A DNA stretch of 64,000 bases from Enterococcus caccae ATCC BAA-1240 (GTDB lineage Bacteria; Bacillota; Bacilli; Lactobacillales; Enterococcaceae): positions 310,001-374,000 of the forward strand of contig NZ_KE136476.1 of NCBI RefSeq assembly GCF_000407145.1, given 5' to 3'. Made by a program: the position numbers and the translations under genes. The notes beneath the pieces were generated by a model, which did not search any database, was not told the origin of the DNA, and was given only the letters and a program-made list of their open reading frames with translations. Positions 51,525 to 59,161 of the stretch are shown piece after piece (within the stretch, counting starts at the first letter, position 1; every line of letters begins with the position of its first letter).

Positions 51525-51543
51525 ATTTAAGTACTAAGTATTT

Positions 51544-51608
<65 letters not shown>

Positions 51609-51616
<8 letters not shown>

Positions 51617-51640
51617 TTGGGTGCCAAACCCACGAGAACG
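51609..51640 (+). repeat. Left attachment site core (attL)
   Basis: 32-bp sequence starting ACGACCCATTGGGTGCC and ending GAGAACG, identical to 58969-59000. It includes the last 8 nt of tRNA-Lys and a small TGGGT/ACCCA hairpin. Confidence 0.92.
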
Positions 51641-51697
51641 AAGGACTATCGGCGCTATTGCAGCGTTTCGAAGATAATCCTTGCGTTCTTATTTTTA
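51616..51697 (+). terminator. Element-borne structured tRNA terminator
   Basis: Large stem: GAACGAAGGACTATC pairs with GATAATCCTTGCGTTC around an inner CGCT/AGCG hairpin and a TTTCGAA strand, then TTATTTTTATT. The same fold with changed but paired bases follows the right repeat (58976-59054). Confidence 0.75.
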
Positions 51698-51781: not shown

Positions 51782-52099
51782 TTATTTATTATTCAAAGAT
51801 TTTAAAATCGCTAAAATATGTTCTAATGTTTCGTCATCTAAATCAACCAAATTAGTATTGATTGCTGAAACTAGTTGGCTATGATTCTTAGGTTCATAGA
51901 GAAATTCACTAATGGAAATTTCTAAGTATTCACAAATAGCATAAAGCATTTGAATTGAAGGCATAGAACGTTTATTTTCTATTGAATTAATGTAATTTTC
52001 ATTTTGTCCGATTGCAATACTCATTTCTCTTGCACTGACATTTTTCTTTGTTCTAAATTTATGAAGTCTTTCAGATAAAAAAGTTTCAAAATTATTCAT
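51782..52099 (-). CDS. XRE-family (Cro/C1-type HTH) regulator
   Basis: 105-residue repressor-like protein. The helix-turn-helix spans about residues 12-65 (KNVSAREMSIAIGQNENYINSI with IENKRSMPS), and the C-terminal 35 residues form a short dimerisation tail. It is divergent from the 99-residue orphan gene, with palindromic sites in the 156-bp gap, fitting an element maintenance repressor. Start ATG 52099; ribosome binding site GGAAG is about 11 bp away. Confidence 0.85.
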   Translation of the reverse strand: MNNFETFLSERLHKFRTKKNVSAREMSIAIGQNENYINSIENKRSMPSIQMLYAICEYLEISISEFLYEPKNHSQLVSAINTNLVDLDDETLEHILAILKSLNNK

Positions 52100-52629: not shown

Positions 52630-53819
52630 TTAGTTTTGCTGATGCATCAGTTCAGCAAATTTTTCTACAGCTTGTTTGTTTACTTCTTTCGTAACATGAA
52701 GATAAACTTTTCTCATTGTTTTAGAATCTTCGTGACCAATTCTTTCTTGGATTGCTTGTAAATCTACACCAGCTTGCGCAAGTAAACTTACATGTGTATG
52801 TCTAAATTTATGAAGAGATAAATTTTTTGTAATTCCAATTTTTTGAAGATATCTTTTTAAGCGAAAACCGATTGCTCGTCTAGATTCTGGGTACCCAGTG
52901 AAATCACCTTGCAATTTAGCGAAAACAAAGTTCTTATCATGGTAGGCTGGAAATTCTTGCTTTATTTTCATTTGTTCAAAGTTTATACTACTTAGTTGTT
53001 CTAAAACAATTTTATCCACTGAAATAACTCGATTGGATTTTTTCGTTTTAGGTGTAGTAAGTTCATATTCTTGGATTCTATTTTCATTTCTAAACAACGT
53101 TTTATGGACACTAATAGTTTCATTAACAAAATCTATATCATCCCATTGTAAAGCTAATAACTCACCAATTCGAATGCCTGTATAAGCTAATGTTAAAAAA
53201 ATTGAATAATCAAGTATGTTAGTATTTTTTCGGACATAGTCTAAAAATGTTAGTAATTCTTTTTTAGTCAAATAAAGTTCTTCCAGTGATTTTTCTTTTA
53301 ATTCTTCAATGGTAGTGATTCTTTTAGGAATAACGACATTTTCTGTTGGATTTTTCTCTATCAAGTTATTCTCAAAAGCATACTTGAAAATTAATTTACC
53401 GACTATATTCAATGTTTCGATGGTACTTTTACTGTAGTTTTACTAAACAATGTATTCAAAAATTCTTGATAAATGATTGAACTAATTGTTGTAAGTGGAT
53501 ATTGCCCTAAATACTTTTTAAGATTAGGTATTGCAGTTGTTTCACGATTTAATATGGTACTCTTTTTTACACCTGAAAGCTTATATTGCTCAAACCAGTG
53601 GTCTATGACATCAGTAAACAATAAACTCTTGTCGGGTATCGACTGACCTATAGAAACCTTTTGAAATAGCTTAGAAGCGCCCAATTGCGCTTCTTTTTTA
53701 GTTTTAAAGCCTCGTCGAGTTATATACTTGACTTTCCCTGTTTGCATGTCAGTTCCAGCCCTAGTTTTAAACATCCACATTTCACCTTTTTTTGTCTTAT
53801 ACTTTTGAAAGCTTGCCAT
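52630..53819 (-). pseudogene. int: Tyrosine integrase, frameshifted
   Basis: The N-terminal part (53409-53819, 136 residues) has the arm-binding domain (MASFQKYKTKKGEMW) and the start of the core-binding domain. The C-terminal part (52630-53412, 260 residues) has the catalytic domain: Arg in TGIRIGELLAL, HKFRHTH, and the active Tyr in KVYLHVT. The two are out of frame by one base. Adding one A to the AAAA run (minus strand; TTTT at 53427-53430) restores a continuous reading VKSTIETLNIVGK and a normal length of about 396 residues. Either a real inactivating deletion or a sequencing error in a homopolymer. It would have catalysed insertion at tRNA-Lys. Confidence 0.85.
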
Positions 53820-53847
53820 TGTTCAGTTCCTTTCCGAAACTTCCAAA

Positions 53848-54738
53848 TCATGCTATACTATTCTTGTCTAGGGAGTAGTGTTTTTGATTAGGAGAGTTTT
53901 TCTCTTGTTCATTAATGCTACTTTTTATTATATTGTCAAAATCTTTTGAATCTGTCATTATCATATAAGTTGTTTCATTATCAAAGTATTCTTCATTATT
54001 GATAAATACTTTTCTAGAATAATTTTTGTAGAGTTCTAATTTTTTTGATCGTTGTAATTCCAGTTTAATCTCTTCTATATTTTCTATACACATCACTTTT
54101 TCAAAAGGCTTCTTTAAGTTCTGGCTAGTAAAGAAAGCTTTTTTGTGTTCAGATTTTTCGGCTAAATCTTTTGTGAAATATTTACTGACATAGCTACCAT
54201 ATTTTTCTTTTGCTACATCATTTGGGATTTGATTAATTCTGATAAAGCCATGTTTCCAAATGTGTTGTAGTTCATTAGTTGGAATAAAAGGAAAGTCGAA
54301 TAAAACAAGGTGATAATGAATAACGGACTTTCCTGTTTTTAGCTTTCGTTTTGCCTGTATTTCCCAAGTTGCAATATACTTGACTCTGGGAAGCTTCATT
54401 TTCTTTGTCAGTCTGTAATTTAGCCGTTTTATAAACTTGTTAAATAAATAGTTTGTTTTCTCTAGGCTTTCTAGATCATCCGCAAAAGTTAGTGTTAGAA
54501 ATTTTGTCTGATTATCAAAGTTCATATTAATCAACCTACGAATATATTGTGCTTTATTTTTATAATAATTAGCTTTCTTATCAAGTCATTCCTCCTCAGA
54601 TTCTTTATTTTTTTCTTTTAATGGAATGATAGAGCCAGTTTTTCTTTTTCCAGTGAAACCATAAATAACTGGAGTCTGATAAAAATACAATTCTGAACTG
54701 TAAGGAGTGGAAATCACTTTAACATTGTATTCTGGCAT
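53848..54738 (-). pseudogene. HUH-type rolling-circle replication initiator, internal stop
   Basis: Reading from ATG 54738 (AAAGGTGG ribosome binding site) gives a 296-codon frame with one TGA at codon 51 (54586-54588); a single C-to-T change from CGA (Arg) would explain it. Downstream the protein shows the Rep motifs FLTLTFADD (motif 1), HYHLVLF (HUH) and YGSYVSKYFTKD (catalytic Tyr with Lys). The residues on both sides of the TGA read as one continuous protein, ESEEE then LDKKANYYKNKAQYI. The product probably nicked an origin in the adjacent noncoding block. Restart downstream of the stop has no good ribosome binding site. Confidence 0.82.
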
Positions 54739-55126
54739 TAATTGACCACCTTTCAGATGTAATGACTTTTTTTTATAGATCTGCTCTAAACTGTGAATTT
54801 GACCTCAATTTCTGCTTTTTATATTCTCCAGATAGTAGACTATTATCAAGTTAAATAGGAAGAACCTCACTTCGTTCGATTCTTCTGGCTCTTGCACCAC
54901 ATCCGCACTAGCATTTGTCGCTGACGCACAAATGCGCACGGTGTGTCTCAGAGCCTAAAAAATAGAAAACTAATCTAACCCCTAGCCCCAAATCATTTGG
55001 GACACACTCGCCGTTGGGCAGTTCTCTTTGCTACTTCATATCAAAGAGAAGACAATCAAGTGTTTTATGGGAGGATATTAGCCAACAACTCCTTAAACCG
55101 CTTCGCTATTTACCGTTGACTGCACT
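54739..55126. other. Noncoding block between rep and the DUF3173 gene; candidate replication/transfer origin
   Basis: 388 bp with no convincing gene. Perfect palindromes are GCATTTGT...ACAAATGC (54911-54935) and CCCAAAT-C-ATTTGGG (54987-55001), plus a weaker GAAGAA...TTCTTC at about 54870-54890. It is less AT-rich than the flanking element genes. Position next to an HUH Rep gene fits a double-strand origin or oriT, which is inference. Confidence 0.4.
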
Positions 55127-55330
55127 TTATGCAGACTTCTTTTCAAACGTTAAACTGAAACCTAAAATTTCTTCAACTGCTTTTTTAGGAACAAGTCCTA
55201 ATTTTGAATTATCATAGAAGTTAAATCCTTTATTAACCATTAAGATTTTCGATTCTCTGATGATTCGAGTTGCTACAGAGGGTTTGAAGCCTAATGATTC
55301 TAAATCTGATTTTGTATCAGTGGTATTCAT
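55127..55330 (-). CDS. DUF3173 family protein
   Basis: 67-residue protein of the DUF3173 type often found beside Rep and integrase in streptococcal and enterococcal integrative elements. The pattern LESLGFKPSVATRIIRESK, then GFNFYDNSKLGLVPKKAVEEILG matches the family as I know it. It is probably a DNA-binding accessory (excisionase-like) factor, but no function is established. ATG follows AAAGGATG. Divergent from the right-hand XRE gene. Confidence 0.78.
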   Translation of the reverse strand: MNTTDTKSDLESLGFKPSVATRIIRESKILMVNKGFNFYDNSKLGLVPKKAVEEILGFSLTFEKKSA

Positions 55331-55368
55331 GAAATCACATCCTTTTAAACCAACTTTCTATGTTTTTA

Positions 55369-55429
55369 GTAGTTTTAAAACTACCTTAATGACAATATAA
55401 CATCTTTAAATCGACTTTTTAACAAAAAG
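55369..55429. promoter_or_regulatory. Palindromic operator candidates between the DUF3173 and XRE genes
   Basis: GTAGTTTTAAAACTAC (55369-55384) is a perfect 16-bp palindrome, and CTTTTT-AAC-AAAAAG (55415-55429) is a second inverted repeat. Both lie in the divergent promoter region. Confidence 0.5.
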
Positions 55430-55483
55430 ATTGGTTTAATTCTACTTTTTGTGTATAATGAGTTTGAATGGAGGTTTTAATCA

Positions 55484-55993
55484 ATGTTAAAAAGTAATTT
55501 AGCTGAAAATATTAAGAAGTATCGTAAGAAAAAATCATTAACTCAAGTTGAACTAGCTGAAAAATTGAATATTTCAAAACATAGTATTATAAGTTACGAA
55601 AAAGGGGCGACCTTTCCATCTAGTGATATTCTTGAAAATATGATGGAATTGTTTGAAGTTACGCCCAATCAATTATTTTTTCCGATTTATACTGATGAAG
55701 ATGAAATTACGGATAAAGAAGCAAAGATTAAAGAATTAGAATCTTATCGAGAAAATATTTTAACGACTGTTAAAAATATTGAAGATAATGCTTCATTGAT
55801 AGAATACAAAGATCCTGTTTATGATGAGCAAGGAAATATTATTGAATATAAAGATGTAGAAATTTCAGCTATGGACCAAGCTATAGGTGTTTTAGTGAAG
55901 GCGATAGATTTAGAAAATTTGGATATGAGATTGTTAATTGAGGTTTTTAATATGAAGATTGACGGTGAAATTAAAAAAATTGATATTAAATAA
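55484..55993 (+). CDS. XRE-family regulator with C-terminal extension
   Basis: 169-residue regulator. The N-terminal HTH (residues 8-62) reads KKSLTQVELAEKLNISKHSI then SYEKGATFPS. The C-terminal 100 residues are acidic and helical and do not match a protease or metal site by eye. It is divergent from the DUF3173 gene and upstream of the nuclease/ATPase cassette, from which a terminator and 144 bp separate it. It may control excision genes or the cassette. Confidence 0.82.
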   Translation: MLKSNLAENIKKYRKKKSLTQVELAEKLNISKHSIISYEKGATFPSSDILENMMELFEVTPNQLFFPIYTDEDEITDKEAKIKELESYRENILTTVKNIEDNASLIEYKDPVYDEQGNIIEYKDVEISAMDQAIGVLVKAIDLENLDMRLLIEVFNMKIDGEIKKIDIK

Positions 55994-56137: not shown

Positions 56138-57235
56138 GTGTGTTATACAATATCATCTACAGAAAAATTAAATGAATCCGCATCAAGTTTTGAAACTGCA
56201 TCATTATTGTACTTAATAACATTAAATAGTAATAGAAATAAAATGCATTATTATTTTATAGATTTATTCAACGATGTTACATCAATGACAGAAAAAGATG
56301 AAATCTTATTTGATGTACAATCTAAAAATGATAAAAATATGTCTCCAAAAAAATTAGGTAGATATTTAGTAACACTTTTTAAAAACTATGTTTCTTCTAT
56401 AGAATTTGACTCTTATTACTTGACCATTCCTTGTAATCTTAACGAAAAAAACATTAAGAAGAATGTGCATTCTAAAAGTAAAACTGCAAGAATTATAGAT
56501 TATCTTGAACAAGATGCATTGAGGAAAGTAGGGGAAGGGTTATTTGAAGAAATAAATGATAAAACATACTTAAATAAATATGTGAAAAGTAATACTGATG
56601 TTGTTATTAAAGATGAAATTAATAAATTTCTATCTAAAACTTATGTAGTTATATTATCAGTTGAACATGAACAATTAGTATTAAACTTTCTTGAAAATAA
56701 ATCTTTAAATGTTGATAAAGTATTTTTAAAAAATATTTTTAATGAAATCAGAGATGCACAAAACAAACTAAAACAAATAAACGTAGAAAATTTGACATTG
56801 AATGTTGTTTCAGAGGCAGTGGATTTAAAAAAACATTTTGTGAGTGAAGAACTGAGAACATTAGTATTCAATAGAATTATAATGTTGGATTTTTGTGATA
56901 ACAGCTTACCTTTAAACTTTGTCTATTACGTTACAAGGAATTATTCAGATTTTTCCGAATGGGAATTAAAAGAATTATATACAGATTGTATTGATTCAAT
57001 AAGGAAAACAATTTTTGACAAAAATAGTAAGAAAGTTTTTTGGACGACCTTTTGTGAAATATACAATCTTATTTTGAACCATCCTAATTTATCAATTACT
57101 GAAATCTATCAAAAATTGGAAAGAAATTTTATAGATAAAATGAAATTTCTTAGGGATAGTGAAGATGTGTATATATATTTTATTGCTTTAATTCAAAATG
57201 GAGTAAAGGGGTACTTAGAAGAGTATGAAAATTAA
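56138..57235 (+). CDS. Putative nuclease-like effector of a two-gene cassette
   Basis: 365-residue protein, no confident family match. The N-terminal 95 residues look like a PD-(D/E)xK-type nuclease core of the Cap4/DUF4297 kind: a helix with Glu19, an acidic IDLFNDVTS (Asp46), and the strand ILFDVQSKND giving Asp59-x-Gln61-x-Lys63. The rest (100-365) is helical and Lys/Asn-rich, possibly the sensor or partner-binding part. No signal peptide or membrane helix. The start is GTG at 56138, about 11 bp after AGGAAAGAGG. The stop lies 11 bp inside the next gene, which encodes an SMC-like ATPase, so the products are probably partners. The nuclease assignment is by motif and context only. Confidence 0.6.
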   Translation: MCYTISSTEKLNESASSFETASLLYLITLNSNRNKMHYYFIDLFNDVTSMTEKDEILFDVQSKNDKNMSPKKLGRYLVTLFKNYVSSIEFDSYYLTIPCNLNEKNIKKNVHSKSKTARIIDYLEQDALRKVGEGLFEEINDKTYLNKYVKSNTDVVIKDEINKFLSKTYVVILSVEHEQLVLNFLENKSLNVDKVFLKNIFNEIRDAQNKLKQINVENLTLNVVSEAVDLKKHFVSEELRTLVFNRIIMLDFCDNSLPLNFVYYVTRNYSDFSEWELKELYTDCIDSIRKTIFDKNSKKVFWTTFCEIYNLILNHPNLSITEIYQKLERNFIDKMKFLRDSEDVYIYFIALIQNGVKGYLEEYEN

Positions 57236-58841
57236 TATGGTAGCGATAGGAAATTCAGAACAAGCATTTGTAGAAAAGAGAATTACAAATGGTGTAAATA
57301 TCATTATAAGTGATGATAATGATAGAGGGAAAACAATTGTTATACAGTCTATTTTGTTTGTATTGGGGAATGTTCCTGTATATCCAACAAGTTTTGACTG
57401 GAAAAACCACTATTTTTATTTATCTATTGATGTAAATAACTCTACTATTGAAATCTTACGAAAAAGAAATCAATTTATTGTGATTGATTCAAAAAATAGT
57501 TTTCAGATATTTGAGACTGTAAAAGATTTTACAAAATATTTTGATAAAGAAATTTATAAACTTCCACAATTTATAAAAAACGAAAAAAAAGAGACAGCAT
57601 CACTTGATTTATTTCACCAACTGTATTTTGTAGGGCAGGATGAAAGAAGTACATCAAATATAGTTAATGCTGGAAGGTATAACAAAGTAGATTTTTTAAA
57701 TATGTTAGCATTTATGAAATATGATTATTTAACTGAGACTGGTTTATCAGAAAAAATTAATAAACTTAAGAGTGAATTGAAGAATTTGAAAATAGATATT
57801 GATAAAAAGAATAAATCAATTAAATATAAAAAGAGGTTAAAAAAATATGAGGAAGCAACGAATTTAGTTGAGGTTGAAAAGAAGTTTAAAAGGGTTAGAT
57901 TGGCTTTGAATAAAAGGATAAAAGAAATATCGGAATTAGAAAAAGATTTAGCTCGTTTAGAAAATTTTATGTCTACTAGAGATAGGTTGAAAAACGAACT
58001 TAACTCACTTAATAAAGAACTAAACTATGGAAATGTGAAATGTAATGATTGTGGATCGAAAAATATAATATATAGTTCTAAAGATGATAGTTTTTCTTTT
58101 AATGTTTCTAACTCAGATATTAGAAGAAAAATTCTTGAATCTATTGATAGAGAAATCCTGACAACACGTTTTGAAATTAACGAAAAAAAATCTTTGATTA
58201 GAGAGAAAATTAATGATAGAAGTCAAGTTTTAGTTGATGAAGGTTTGACTCATGAAGATTATGTTTATTTTTCAGAATTTAATAAATCATTAATTGACTA
58301 CAATGATGAATTAAAAGAATTGTTAGATATTAAAGATAGTTTGGAATTGGAGATTACTACTTTAGAAAATCAGAAGAAAAATTCATCTAAAGAATCTAAG
58401 TTGGCAGAAAAGAAAATTTTAGAATTAATGAAAAAGGAGTATCATTATTTTGATAATGAAGGAAACTTAGAATTTGATAGCTTATTTACTAAAAGAAATG
58501 TTACTCATTCTGGAAGTGATAGGCAAGAGTTTATGTCTGCAAAATTAATTGCTATAAATAAATTTTTAGAATTACCTTTTCCAATAATTATTGATGCATT
58601 TAGAGAAGGTGAGTTATCAACGAATAAAGAAGAATTAATGATTCCTAGATTTGAGAAATTAAATACTCAAGTTATATTATCTTGCACTTTGAAAAAAGAA
58701 GAACATTTTTCAAATAAATATTCTGAATTGAAAAATGTAAATAAGATAGACTATTCAAAAAATGAAAAGAACCATATTTTGAGTGCTAAAGCATTGAAAG
58801 AATTTAAAGAAATAATTAGTAAATTTAATATTACCCTTTGA
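57225..58841 (+). CDS. Short Rad50/SMC-like ABC ATPase with CxxC hook
   Basis: 538-residue ABC-type ATPase of the SMC/Rad50 style. A variant Walker A, DDNDRGKTIVIQ with Gly35-Lys36-Thr37, and the Q-loop YFVGQDERS (about 135-142) open the head. A coiled coil at about 174-265 leads to a Cys273-x-x-Cys276 zinc-hook-like turn (VKCNDCGSKN), and a return coil at about 300-402 follows. The signature SGSDRQ (429-434) and Walker B FPIIIDAFREGE (Asp457, Glu461/463) complete the head. Starts inside the upstream gene by 11 bp. Similar heads occur in LmuB (Lamassu) and ABC-three-component systems, but this one is much shorter and comes with a single partner. Confidence 0.75.
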   Translation: MKINMVAIGNSEQAFVEKRITNGVNIIISDDNDRGKTIVIQSILFVLGNVPVYPTSFDWKNHYFYLSIDVNNSTIEILRKRNQFIVIDSKNSFQIFETVKDFTKYFDKEIYKLPQFIKNEKKETASLDLFHQLYFVGQDERSTSNIVNAGRYNKVDFLNMLAFMKYDYLTETGLSEKINKLKSELKNLKIDIDKKNKSIKYKKRLKKYEEATNLVEVEKKFKRVRLALNKRIKEISELEKDLARLENFMSTRDRLKNELNSLNKELNYGNVKCNDCGSKNIIYSSKDDSFSFNVSNSDIRRKILESIDREILTTRFEINEKKSLIREKINDRSQVLVDEGLTHEDYVYFSEFNKSLIDYNDELKELLDIKDSLELEITTLENQKKNSSKESKLAEKKILELMKKEYHYFDNEGNLEFDSLFTKRNVTHSGSDRQEFMSAKLIAINKFLELPFPIIIDAFREGELSTNKEELMIPRFEKLNTQVILSCTLKKEEHFSNKYSELKNVNKIDYSKNEKNHILSAKALKEFKEIISKFNITL

Positions 58842-58968: not shown

Positions 58969-59000
58969 ACGACCCATTGGGTGCCAAACCCACGAGAACG
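58969..59000 (+). repeat. Right attachment site core (attR)
   Basis: Exact 32-bp copy of 51609-51640. The base before it (C) differs from the left copy (T), and the base after it (G versus A) differs too, so the identity ends sharply. Confidence 0.92.
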
Positions 59001-59057
59001 GTATTCTGTCGGCGTCTTTGGACGTTTCGAAGATGGAATAGGCGTTCTTTTTTTGTT
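58976..59057 (+). terminator. Chromosomal structured tRNA-Lys terminator
   Basis: Stem GAACGGTATTCTGTC / GATGGAATAGGCGTTC around CGTC/GACG and TTTCGAA, followed by TTTTTTTG. This should be the original tRNA terminator, now separated from its tRNA by the element. Confidence 0.75.
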
Positions 59058-59161
59058 TATGTGCTCTTTAAACGGATTGTATAAGTGCAATAATCATATG
59101 AAGTGAGTATTCCATTATTTAATGATACACTAAAGAAAAGAACCATCTAGGAGGGGAAATC

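Follow-up and report, generated by a model that had tools for sequence, protein, structure and literature searches.

We describe a pair of adjacent genes, M22A and M22B, in a 64,000-nucleotide stretch of the genome of Enterococcus caccae ATCC BAA-1240 (the window; all E. caccae coordinates are positions within it). The cassette is likely a divergent two-component Lamassu-like immune module that belongs to the putative defence candidate (PDC) family PDC-M22 and sits as cargo on a small integrative element at a tRNA-Lys gene of Enterococcus. Our observations directly support the existence and conservation of the gene pair, the joint inheritance of its two members, the homology of its ATPase to LmuB, its motifs and the absence of any recurrent third gene. 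A first-pass annotation of the window had interpreted the two genes as an undescribed anti-phage or anti-plasmid system of a reduced two-component type. That interpretation is partly supported, and the sequence comparisons suggest that the pair is probably a defence module.

The pair belongs to a catalogued candidate family

The E. caccae genome (3.55 Mb, seven contigs) contains a single copy of the pair, which consists of the following features (ORF, open reading frame; aa, amino acids; ABC, ATP-binding cassette):

56138..57235, + strand: M22A, putative effector, predicted PD-(D/E)xK-type nuclease (ORF with GTG start, 365 aa; PADLOC PDC-M22A, 3.6e-107)
57225..58841, + strand: M22B, LmuB/Rad50-like ABC ATPase with CxxC hook, putative sensor and switch (ORF, 538 aa; PADLOC PDC-M22B, 1.2e-176)
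57225..57235, + strand: M22A/M22B overlap, 11 bp (bases shared by both ORFs)

The coordinates, the overlap and both protein lengths in the ORF listing agree with the first-pass annotation. When searched against PADLOC-DB 2.0.0, M22A matched the model PDC-M22A over residues 1–357 (E-value 3.6e-107) and M22B matched PDC-M22B over residues 1–537 (1.2e-176), the next best model for M22B being LmuB (1.7e-21). We assigned the pair to PDC-M22 since both models matched and the genes are adjacent; adjacency is here an assumption of this analysis and not PADLOC's own rule. The E. caccae pair has the same two genes as the catalogued candidate, with near-full-length matches and no difference found. Judged by these profile matches, it is a member of a known candidate family and not a new kind, and we rejected the proposal of an undescribed system because PADLOC-DB already lists the family. 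The assignment identifies a pair that other resources leave nameless: neither protein attains a curated cut-off in Pfam or NCBIfam, and neither has a match in PHROGs at E 0.001. PDCs are putative defence candidates from a guilt-by-embedding approach, most of them without experimental validation according to an excerpt of PMC12988326. In the literature searched, no paper named PDC-M22 (the naming preprint lay outside the search), and nothing was found on the structure entries 9UX7 and 9UX8.

The gene pair is conserved across phyla and lacks a recurrent third gene

To survey the family, we used an alignment of five M22B sequences to search the genomes of 84,980 species, which resulted in at least 80 loci. 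Together with two viral-contig loci, the two plasmid loci L039 and L040, locus L042 and E. caccae itself, these form a set of 86 loci that includes a few near-copies. The viral contigs yielded no locus with a single protein query and two with the alignment; phage records, searched for M22B, yielded none. By record title the hosts belong to Bacillota, Proteobacteria, Bacteroidota, Spirochaetes, Elusimicrobia, Coriobacteriales and Gastranaerophilales, with many metagenome bins. The family is uncommon: strong M22A matches were present in two of 398 genomes sampled across the phylum (E. caccae and G1002, where M22B adjoins), and strong M22B matches in two of 395 genomes of the order and three of 398 of the class, E. 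caccae included and one of them (G705) broken.

We observed one A match directly before one B match in 79 of the 86 loci. Among these 79, a contig end cuts one gene in L136, L146, L147 and L150, and M22A is short (256 aa) in L089. On the longest ORFs, the two genes overlap in 78 of the 79 pairs, most commonly by 4 bp (32 pairs) or 11 bp (18 pairs), and the 11-bp overlap in E. caccae suggests that M22A and M22B are translationally coupled. A consensus scan for promoters and terminators found 24 promoter-like sites, compared to 28.7 in shuffled sequences, and no terminator-like site. The seven loci without a pair comprise five with A, B or both broken (L086, L099, L104, L111 and L130), one with only B fragments (L145) and L131, which is discussed below. 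Decayed copies, that is the five broken loci and L145, are thus not rare in the set of 86 and may reflect a cost of the system or sequence errors.

No gene occupies the LmuC position between A and B, either in E. caccae or in any of the 79 pairs. Clustering by BLAST of the genes within 4 kb of the pairs detected no recurrent third gene, with the limit that a very fast-evolving small gene could escape such a search; the largest clusters were a serine recombinase (16 of 79 loci), helix-turn-helix (HTH) proteins (7) and tyrosine integrases (6). Of the 79 loci, 34 have a same-strand ORF of at least 45 aa within 150 bp upstream of A and 44 have one within 150 bp downstream of B; many of these ORFs are probably spurious. 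The first-pass annotation had stated that no third gene fits and had proposed a neighbourhood survey of homologues for an obligatory one. The statement holds across the family, and we therefore also rejected the idea that a third gene was lost in E. caccae, given that none recurs beside 79 pairs and that the top neighbour cluster is a recombinase.

Both genes seem to share their history. Across 69 loci, the pairwise distances of A and B are correlated (r=0.84), and none of 1000 permutations gave a value as high. This supports co-inheritance more than contact between the proteins, because shared history contributes to the correlation.

The same 69 of the 79 pairs were used for the alignments A3 (M22A) and A4 (M22B), from which we left out the near-copies L125 and L134, the four loci cut by a contig end, L089 with its short A, and L039, L040 and L042. 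All motifs named in the first-pass annotation are present where it had placed them. M22A contains D59-V-Q61-S-K63 near the N-terminus, with E19 and D42 as further candidate residues; D59, Q61 and K63 are invariant (69/69, E. caccae included), and E19 and D42 are each found in 68 of 69 sequences, with one gap each. The M22A of Cytobacillus firmus, which is outside the aligned set, has Asn in place of D59 and is missing the N-terminal part that would contain E19. M22B contains a variant Walker A (S29-D-D-N-D-R-G-K36-T37), a hook (C273-N-D-C276), a signature (S429-G-S-D-R-Q) and a Walker B (I454-I-I-D457-A-F-R460-E), and S29, N32, G35-K36-T37, C273, C276, S429-G430, D457, R460 and E469 are invariant in all 69 sequences. 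These motifs are not chance, because their residues are invariant across the alignment. The residue that follows the Walker B Asp is S in 46 sequences, Y in 7, C in 6, A in 4, G in 3 and F in 2, so that at least 68 of 69 rows are non-acidic at this position.

M22B is homologous to the Lamassu ATPase LmuB

A PDB search with the profile of the 69 M22B proteins found one good natural chain, 9ux7_A, 'Lamassu protein LmuB' (562 aa), with an E-value of 6.9e-13 over positions 19–498. The weaker entries mostly cover the coiled-coil part, and the top one among them is a designed helical protein (2.8e-6). When compared with hhalign to a profile of ten LmuB proteins, the M22B profile aligned over 504 columns with an E-value of 2.1e-31. 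M22B and its LmuB relatives have in common the variant Walker A (S-x-x-N-x-x-G-K-S/T in many), the CxxC hook and a Walker B of the form D-S/A-F (D-S-F/P). On the profile evidence, M22B is homologous to LmuB over nearly its whole length, and the first-pass expectation of a Rad50/LmuB-type head is borne out.

In an unrooted tree of 47 B proteins (24 of the 69 M22B, namely every third row plus E. caccae and L140, and 23 of 29 relatives), all M22B sequences group in a single clade (100/100) whose stem measures 2.0 changes per site. The two groups of type-I-like LmuB pair together (98/95), and the LmuB of three-gene loci join M46B (see below) weakly (88/64), a join flagged for long-branch risk. Since the tree is unrooted, M22B may lie either inside or beside Lamassu.

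The Walker B of LmuB carries a Glu-to-Gln change from which low hydrolysis has been inferred, according to an excerpt of the review PMC10586767. By analogy with LmuB, and because at least 68 of 69 M22B sequences have no acidic residue after the Walker B Asp, M22B is probably poor at ATP hydrolysis and may act as a slow, near one-way switch.

M22A is probably a nuclease related to LmuA

The Asp...Gln-x-Lys motif is the active-site motif of Cap4/DUF4297 nucleases. Eleven LmuA proteins share an invariant D43, Q56 and K58, and an hhalign comparison of M22A to the LmuA profile over 212 columns places D42...Q61-x-K63 of M22A in register with D43...Q56-x-K58. The comparison has an E-value of 0.0019 (for a single comparison) and a score of 32.1, which is higher than for 100 column shuffles (maximum 23.7), for the reversed profile (17.5) and for single neighbour proteins from a set of 127 (maximum 26.0). 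We thus consider M22A, by its profile, a probable nuclease related to LmuA. Membership of the DUF4297/Cap4 family, as the first-pass annotation had expected, did not emerge from the searches: Cap4_nuclease (PF14130) matched neither M22A of E. caccae (E up to 1) nor its homologues L042, L069 and L108 (E up to 0.1), and there was no PDB match. In the sample of 398 genomes across the phylum, the LmuA model PDLC00241 had two weak partial matches.

Two-gene loci are common among LmuB relatives

To compare M22 with its relatives, we collected 29 LmuB-like loci, counting near-copies (e.g. L006–L008) singly and leaving out L025 (E 9.2e-4). The gene directly upstream of the ATPase encodes 311–385 aa in 22 of the 29 loci (the two-gene layout) and a small middle protein of 152–167 aa in five (L020, L022 and L033–L035); it is unassigned for L019 and L037. 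The gene above the small middle gene in L020 is LmuA. Of eight upstream A proteins scanned with PADLOC at two-gene loci, six matched LmuA and two PDC-M46A, and four of the five LmuA that we compared to Pfam matched PF14130 (L006, L009, L011 and L029, not L028). For L029, LmuA has its match in 9ux7_C ('Lamassu protein LmuA', 315 aa; 3.9e-133) and LmuB in 9ux7_A (9.3e-223); the entries 9ux7 and 9ux8 together contain at least two LmuA and at least four LmuB chains. Eighteen type-I-like LmuB are 551–565 aa long, and L021, apparently cut, has 517 aa. At three-gene loci the LmuB open frames reach 675–690 aa. The nearest relatives of the M22 pair are, as far as these loci show, two-gene and of similar size, and we rejected the view that the M22 ATPase is unusually short.

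Published sources, each consulted as an excerpt, disagree on how frequent the third Lamassu gene is: PMC8565338 gives LmuC in about 10.2% of systems, whereas the review PMC10586767 states that Lamassu 'usually comprise three components', with an LmuB of about 650 aa. The first-pass annotation had held that a third component and a longer ATPase are usual among established relatives. This agrees with the review and is correct for the five three-gene loci, but not for the nearest relatives, of which 22 of 29 are two-gene. Its term 'reduced' is weakly supported at best: the review speaks for it, whereas the two-gene loci, the combination of LmuA and LmuB in 9ux7/9ux8 and the LmuC frequency in PMC8565338 speak against it.

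The two-gene Lamassu (type I, LmuA and LmuB, apparently the kind in 9ux7/9ux8) shares with M22 the order A-B, a short overlap in most loci, the variant Walker A, the CxxC hook, a D-S-F/P Walker B and an effector with D...Q-x-K near the N-terminus, and its LmuB is similarly short (551–565 aa). It differs in that M22A escapes the LmuA and Cap4 models and M22B forms its own clade. Lamassu type II, DdmABC and ABC-three-component (ABC-3C) systems, grouped under Lamassu in the excerpt of PMC10586767, likewise combine an LmuB-like ATPase with an upstream effector, but have the small middle gene and the longer LmuB frames, whereas M22 has no middle gene. PDC-M46 (L023, L024 and L036; A proteins scanned for L023 and L036) also has two genes, an A protein with E-D...Q-A-K-S and a smaller LmuB-like B protein of 480–501 aa, but the three B proteins examined have no CxxC and sit on a distant tree branch. 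The E. caccae pair thus combines an LmuB-type ATPase, whose best model is still PDC-M22B, with an Asp...Gln-x-Lys motif as in Cap4/DUF4297, and it has no match to LmuA models or PF14130, no LmuC and no third small component of the ABC-3C kind.

The cassette is cargo of an element at tRNA-Lys

The M22 pair is the cargo of a 7.36-kb element that is integrated at a tRNA-Lys gene and includes a split integrase, a replication initiator (Rep), two HTH genes, small ORFs and the cassette. Its main features, besides the pair, are:

51543..51617, + strand: tRNA-Lys(CTT), integration site (ARAGORN; the same tRNA adjoins the site in congeners)
51609..51654, + strand: left attachment repeat (46-nt direct repeat, 87%, with 58969-59014; begins inside the tRNA-Lys 3' end)
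52630..53819, - strand: tyrosine integrase, split over two frames (53409-53819 and 52630-53412; one part matches PF14657/PF14659 and the other PF00589; the second part also matches phrog_1 integrase)
53848..54534, - strand: rolling-circle Rep (PF23343, 3.9e-19; phrog_3419)
55484..55993, + strand: HTH regulator of the element (PF12844; ends 145 bp before M22A)
58969..59014, + strand: right attachment repeat (partner of the left repeat)

In all four congeners compared (L045, L046, L047 and L053) the site is empty, with the tRNA side and the right flank contiguous. The first-pass description of the cassette as the only cargo of a mobile element is thus broadly right. The split integrase may mean that the element is immobile, or the split may be a sequence error. 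A cluster related to the HTH regulator upstream of M22A is found near seven of the 79 M22 loci, and this gene is not a conserved part of the cassette.

Enterococcus termitis contains the M22 pair at the same site, without the stretch 52808-55470. Between the two species, synonymous divergence (dS; Nei–Gojobori, with values near saturation) is 0.57 for A, 1.17 for B, 0.33 for a 99-aa ORF and 0.13 for the left HTH gene, whereas three genes in the flanks, by reading FeoB-, FeoA- and thioredoxin-reductase-like, have values of 1.67, 1.39 and 1.51. The ratio of nonsynonymous to synonymous divergence (dN/dS) is 0.14 for A and 0.12 for B. Because the dS within the element is lower and uneven (0.13–1.17) compared to the flanks (1.39–1.67), we rejected the view that this locus has been inherited vertically ever since the two species diverged; the values fit a history in which parts of the element moved laterally or recombined and selection keeps both M22 proteins. 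The left-end HTH gene (51782-52099, - strand) is near-identical to the E. termitis copy, and a recent exchange is likely. Just downstream of its M22 pair, E. termitis has an additional ORF of 299 aa with a hydrophobic N-terminal stretch (L140:9728-10627) that is not there in E. caccae. The right-end stretch (58969-59058) is matched in whole or part in 22 of 22 genomes of the genus; in six of these (G003, G008, G009, G010, G011 and G018) a single contig contains the repeat two or three times, with kilobases between the copies. An integration hotspot thus seems to exist at the 3' end of tRNA-Lys(CTT).

M22 homologues are also found on plasmids and near recombinases. Because a large serine recombinase lies within 4 kb at 16 of the 79 loci, the family seems to be carried by integrative elements of more than one kind. 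The recombinase (e.g. L143:2149-3819) was named by reading, and Pfam Resolvase matches six of the 127 neighbour proteins.

Lastly, we analysed the nearest neighbours of the pairs, taking 127 proteins of 120–900 aa from 75 of the 79 loci (129 were picked and two open-ended ones dropped). Among the 25 commonest of 235 families, PADLOC matches at 1e-10 included cytosine methyltransferases (3), PDC-S02 (2) and GajB models (2). Ten neighbour proteins were then scanned by name: five were without a match, and the others gave, among the named examples, a type II methyltransferase (L102), GajA with GajB (L092), OLD (L075) and BrxL (L098).

Proposed mechanism and alternative explanations

Taken together, the data support a two-gene module on a mobile element, with a Rad50/LmuB-like ATPase and a likely PD-(D/E)xK-type partner, as the first-pass annotation had proposed. 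We model its mechanism on Lamassu as reviewed in the excerpt of PMC10586767, where an ATPase dimer senses its target and a nuclease is released or activated and damages DNA. From this analogy we infer nuclease activity, complex formation, a trigger and abortive infection for M22. M22B would probably dimerise through its head domains and CxxC hook, may sense phage or plasmid DNA by its ends or by unusual structures, and would probably bind ATP in the manner of a slow switch that works almost in one direction only. Once M22B has recognised its target, it might release or activate M22A, which as a PD-(D/E)xK-type nuclease would cut DNA, so that the infection would be aborted or the plasmid destroyed.

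Several observations weigh against this reading. M22A has no Pfam or NCBIfam match at cut-off and no PDB match in a profile search, and no LmuA model in PADLOC-DB matches it even at E 1. The hhalign probability of the M22A-LmuA comparison is 14%, and the N-terminal part alone, which holds the motif, scores 16.5 and thus falls within the shuffle null (maximum 19.0). The review describes Lamassu as usually three-component, and no activity reports for M22 were found in the literature searched. The defence-gene neighbourhood is suggestive only, as the scan had no background control. At L131 (1-2291), on a metagenome contig of 5.7 kb, an intact B has no A; the ORF before it encodes an unrelated cysteine-rich protein of 122 aa, and the locus could represent a B that stands alone, a B with another partner or a join made in assembly. 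Moreover, the trigger of M22B may differ from that of Lamassu, because the M22B proteins branch off as a clade of their own with a long stem.

This separate clade, with its stem of 2.0 changes per site, would also be expected if M22 were a functionally separate ATPase-nuclease system that shares only the LmuB-type ATPase with Lamassu and has its own trigger and effector chemistry, perhaps in DNA-end processing in place of abortive infection. That M22A goes undetected by LmuA and Cap4 models points the same way, as do strongly conserved residues of its own (N45-D46, T79-L80 and N83 in A; R460 and E469 in B). We nevertheless consider such a system unlikely, given that gene order, sizes and two-gene layout resemble 22 of the 29 LmuB-like loci and that both proteins have profile matches, strong for B and weak for A. 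Equally doubtful to us is that M22 represents a separate class of two-component immunity by an ATPase and a nuclease that exists in parallel to Lamassu, with a mini-Rad50 that lacks the canonical catalytic glutamate, responds to another trigger and acts through a distinct nuclease subfamily; if true, M22 would offer a minimal, two-protein setting in which sensing could be dissected from killing.

It is rather improbable that the pair mainly protects its carrier element, by exclusion of plasmids or other elements or by addiction, and does not serve in phage defence. The pair is the cargo of an element with integrase and Rep, its homologues occur on plasmids and, at 16 of 79 loci, within 4 kb of a serine recombinase, and at L111 and L130 a broken A beside an intact B would fit A as toxin and B as antitoxin. 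However, L099 has a broken B and an intact A, which a toxin-antitoxin reading disallows unless it is a sequence error, and Lamassu is reported to act on both phages and plasmids (excerpt of PMC10586767), so plasmid exclusion is no alternative to phage defence. The pairing of an SMC-like ORF with an unrelated ORF by chance is close to impossible: nothing beyond the missing Pfam matches speaks for it, and it is refuted by the 79 of 86 loci from several phyla that keep the pair and by the correlation of 0.84 between the distances of A and B.

With the divergent two-component Lamassu-like module as the preferred explanation, the candidate family PDC-M22 is now placed beside two-component Lamassu, and a set of homologues, the invariant residues and a host genus are supplied for it. 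In Enterococcus, a small tRNA-Lys element is shown to carry such a cassette. If active, M22 would provide a compact pair for asking how a Rad50-like head that may be poor at ATP hydrolysis switches on a nuclease.

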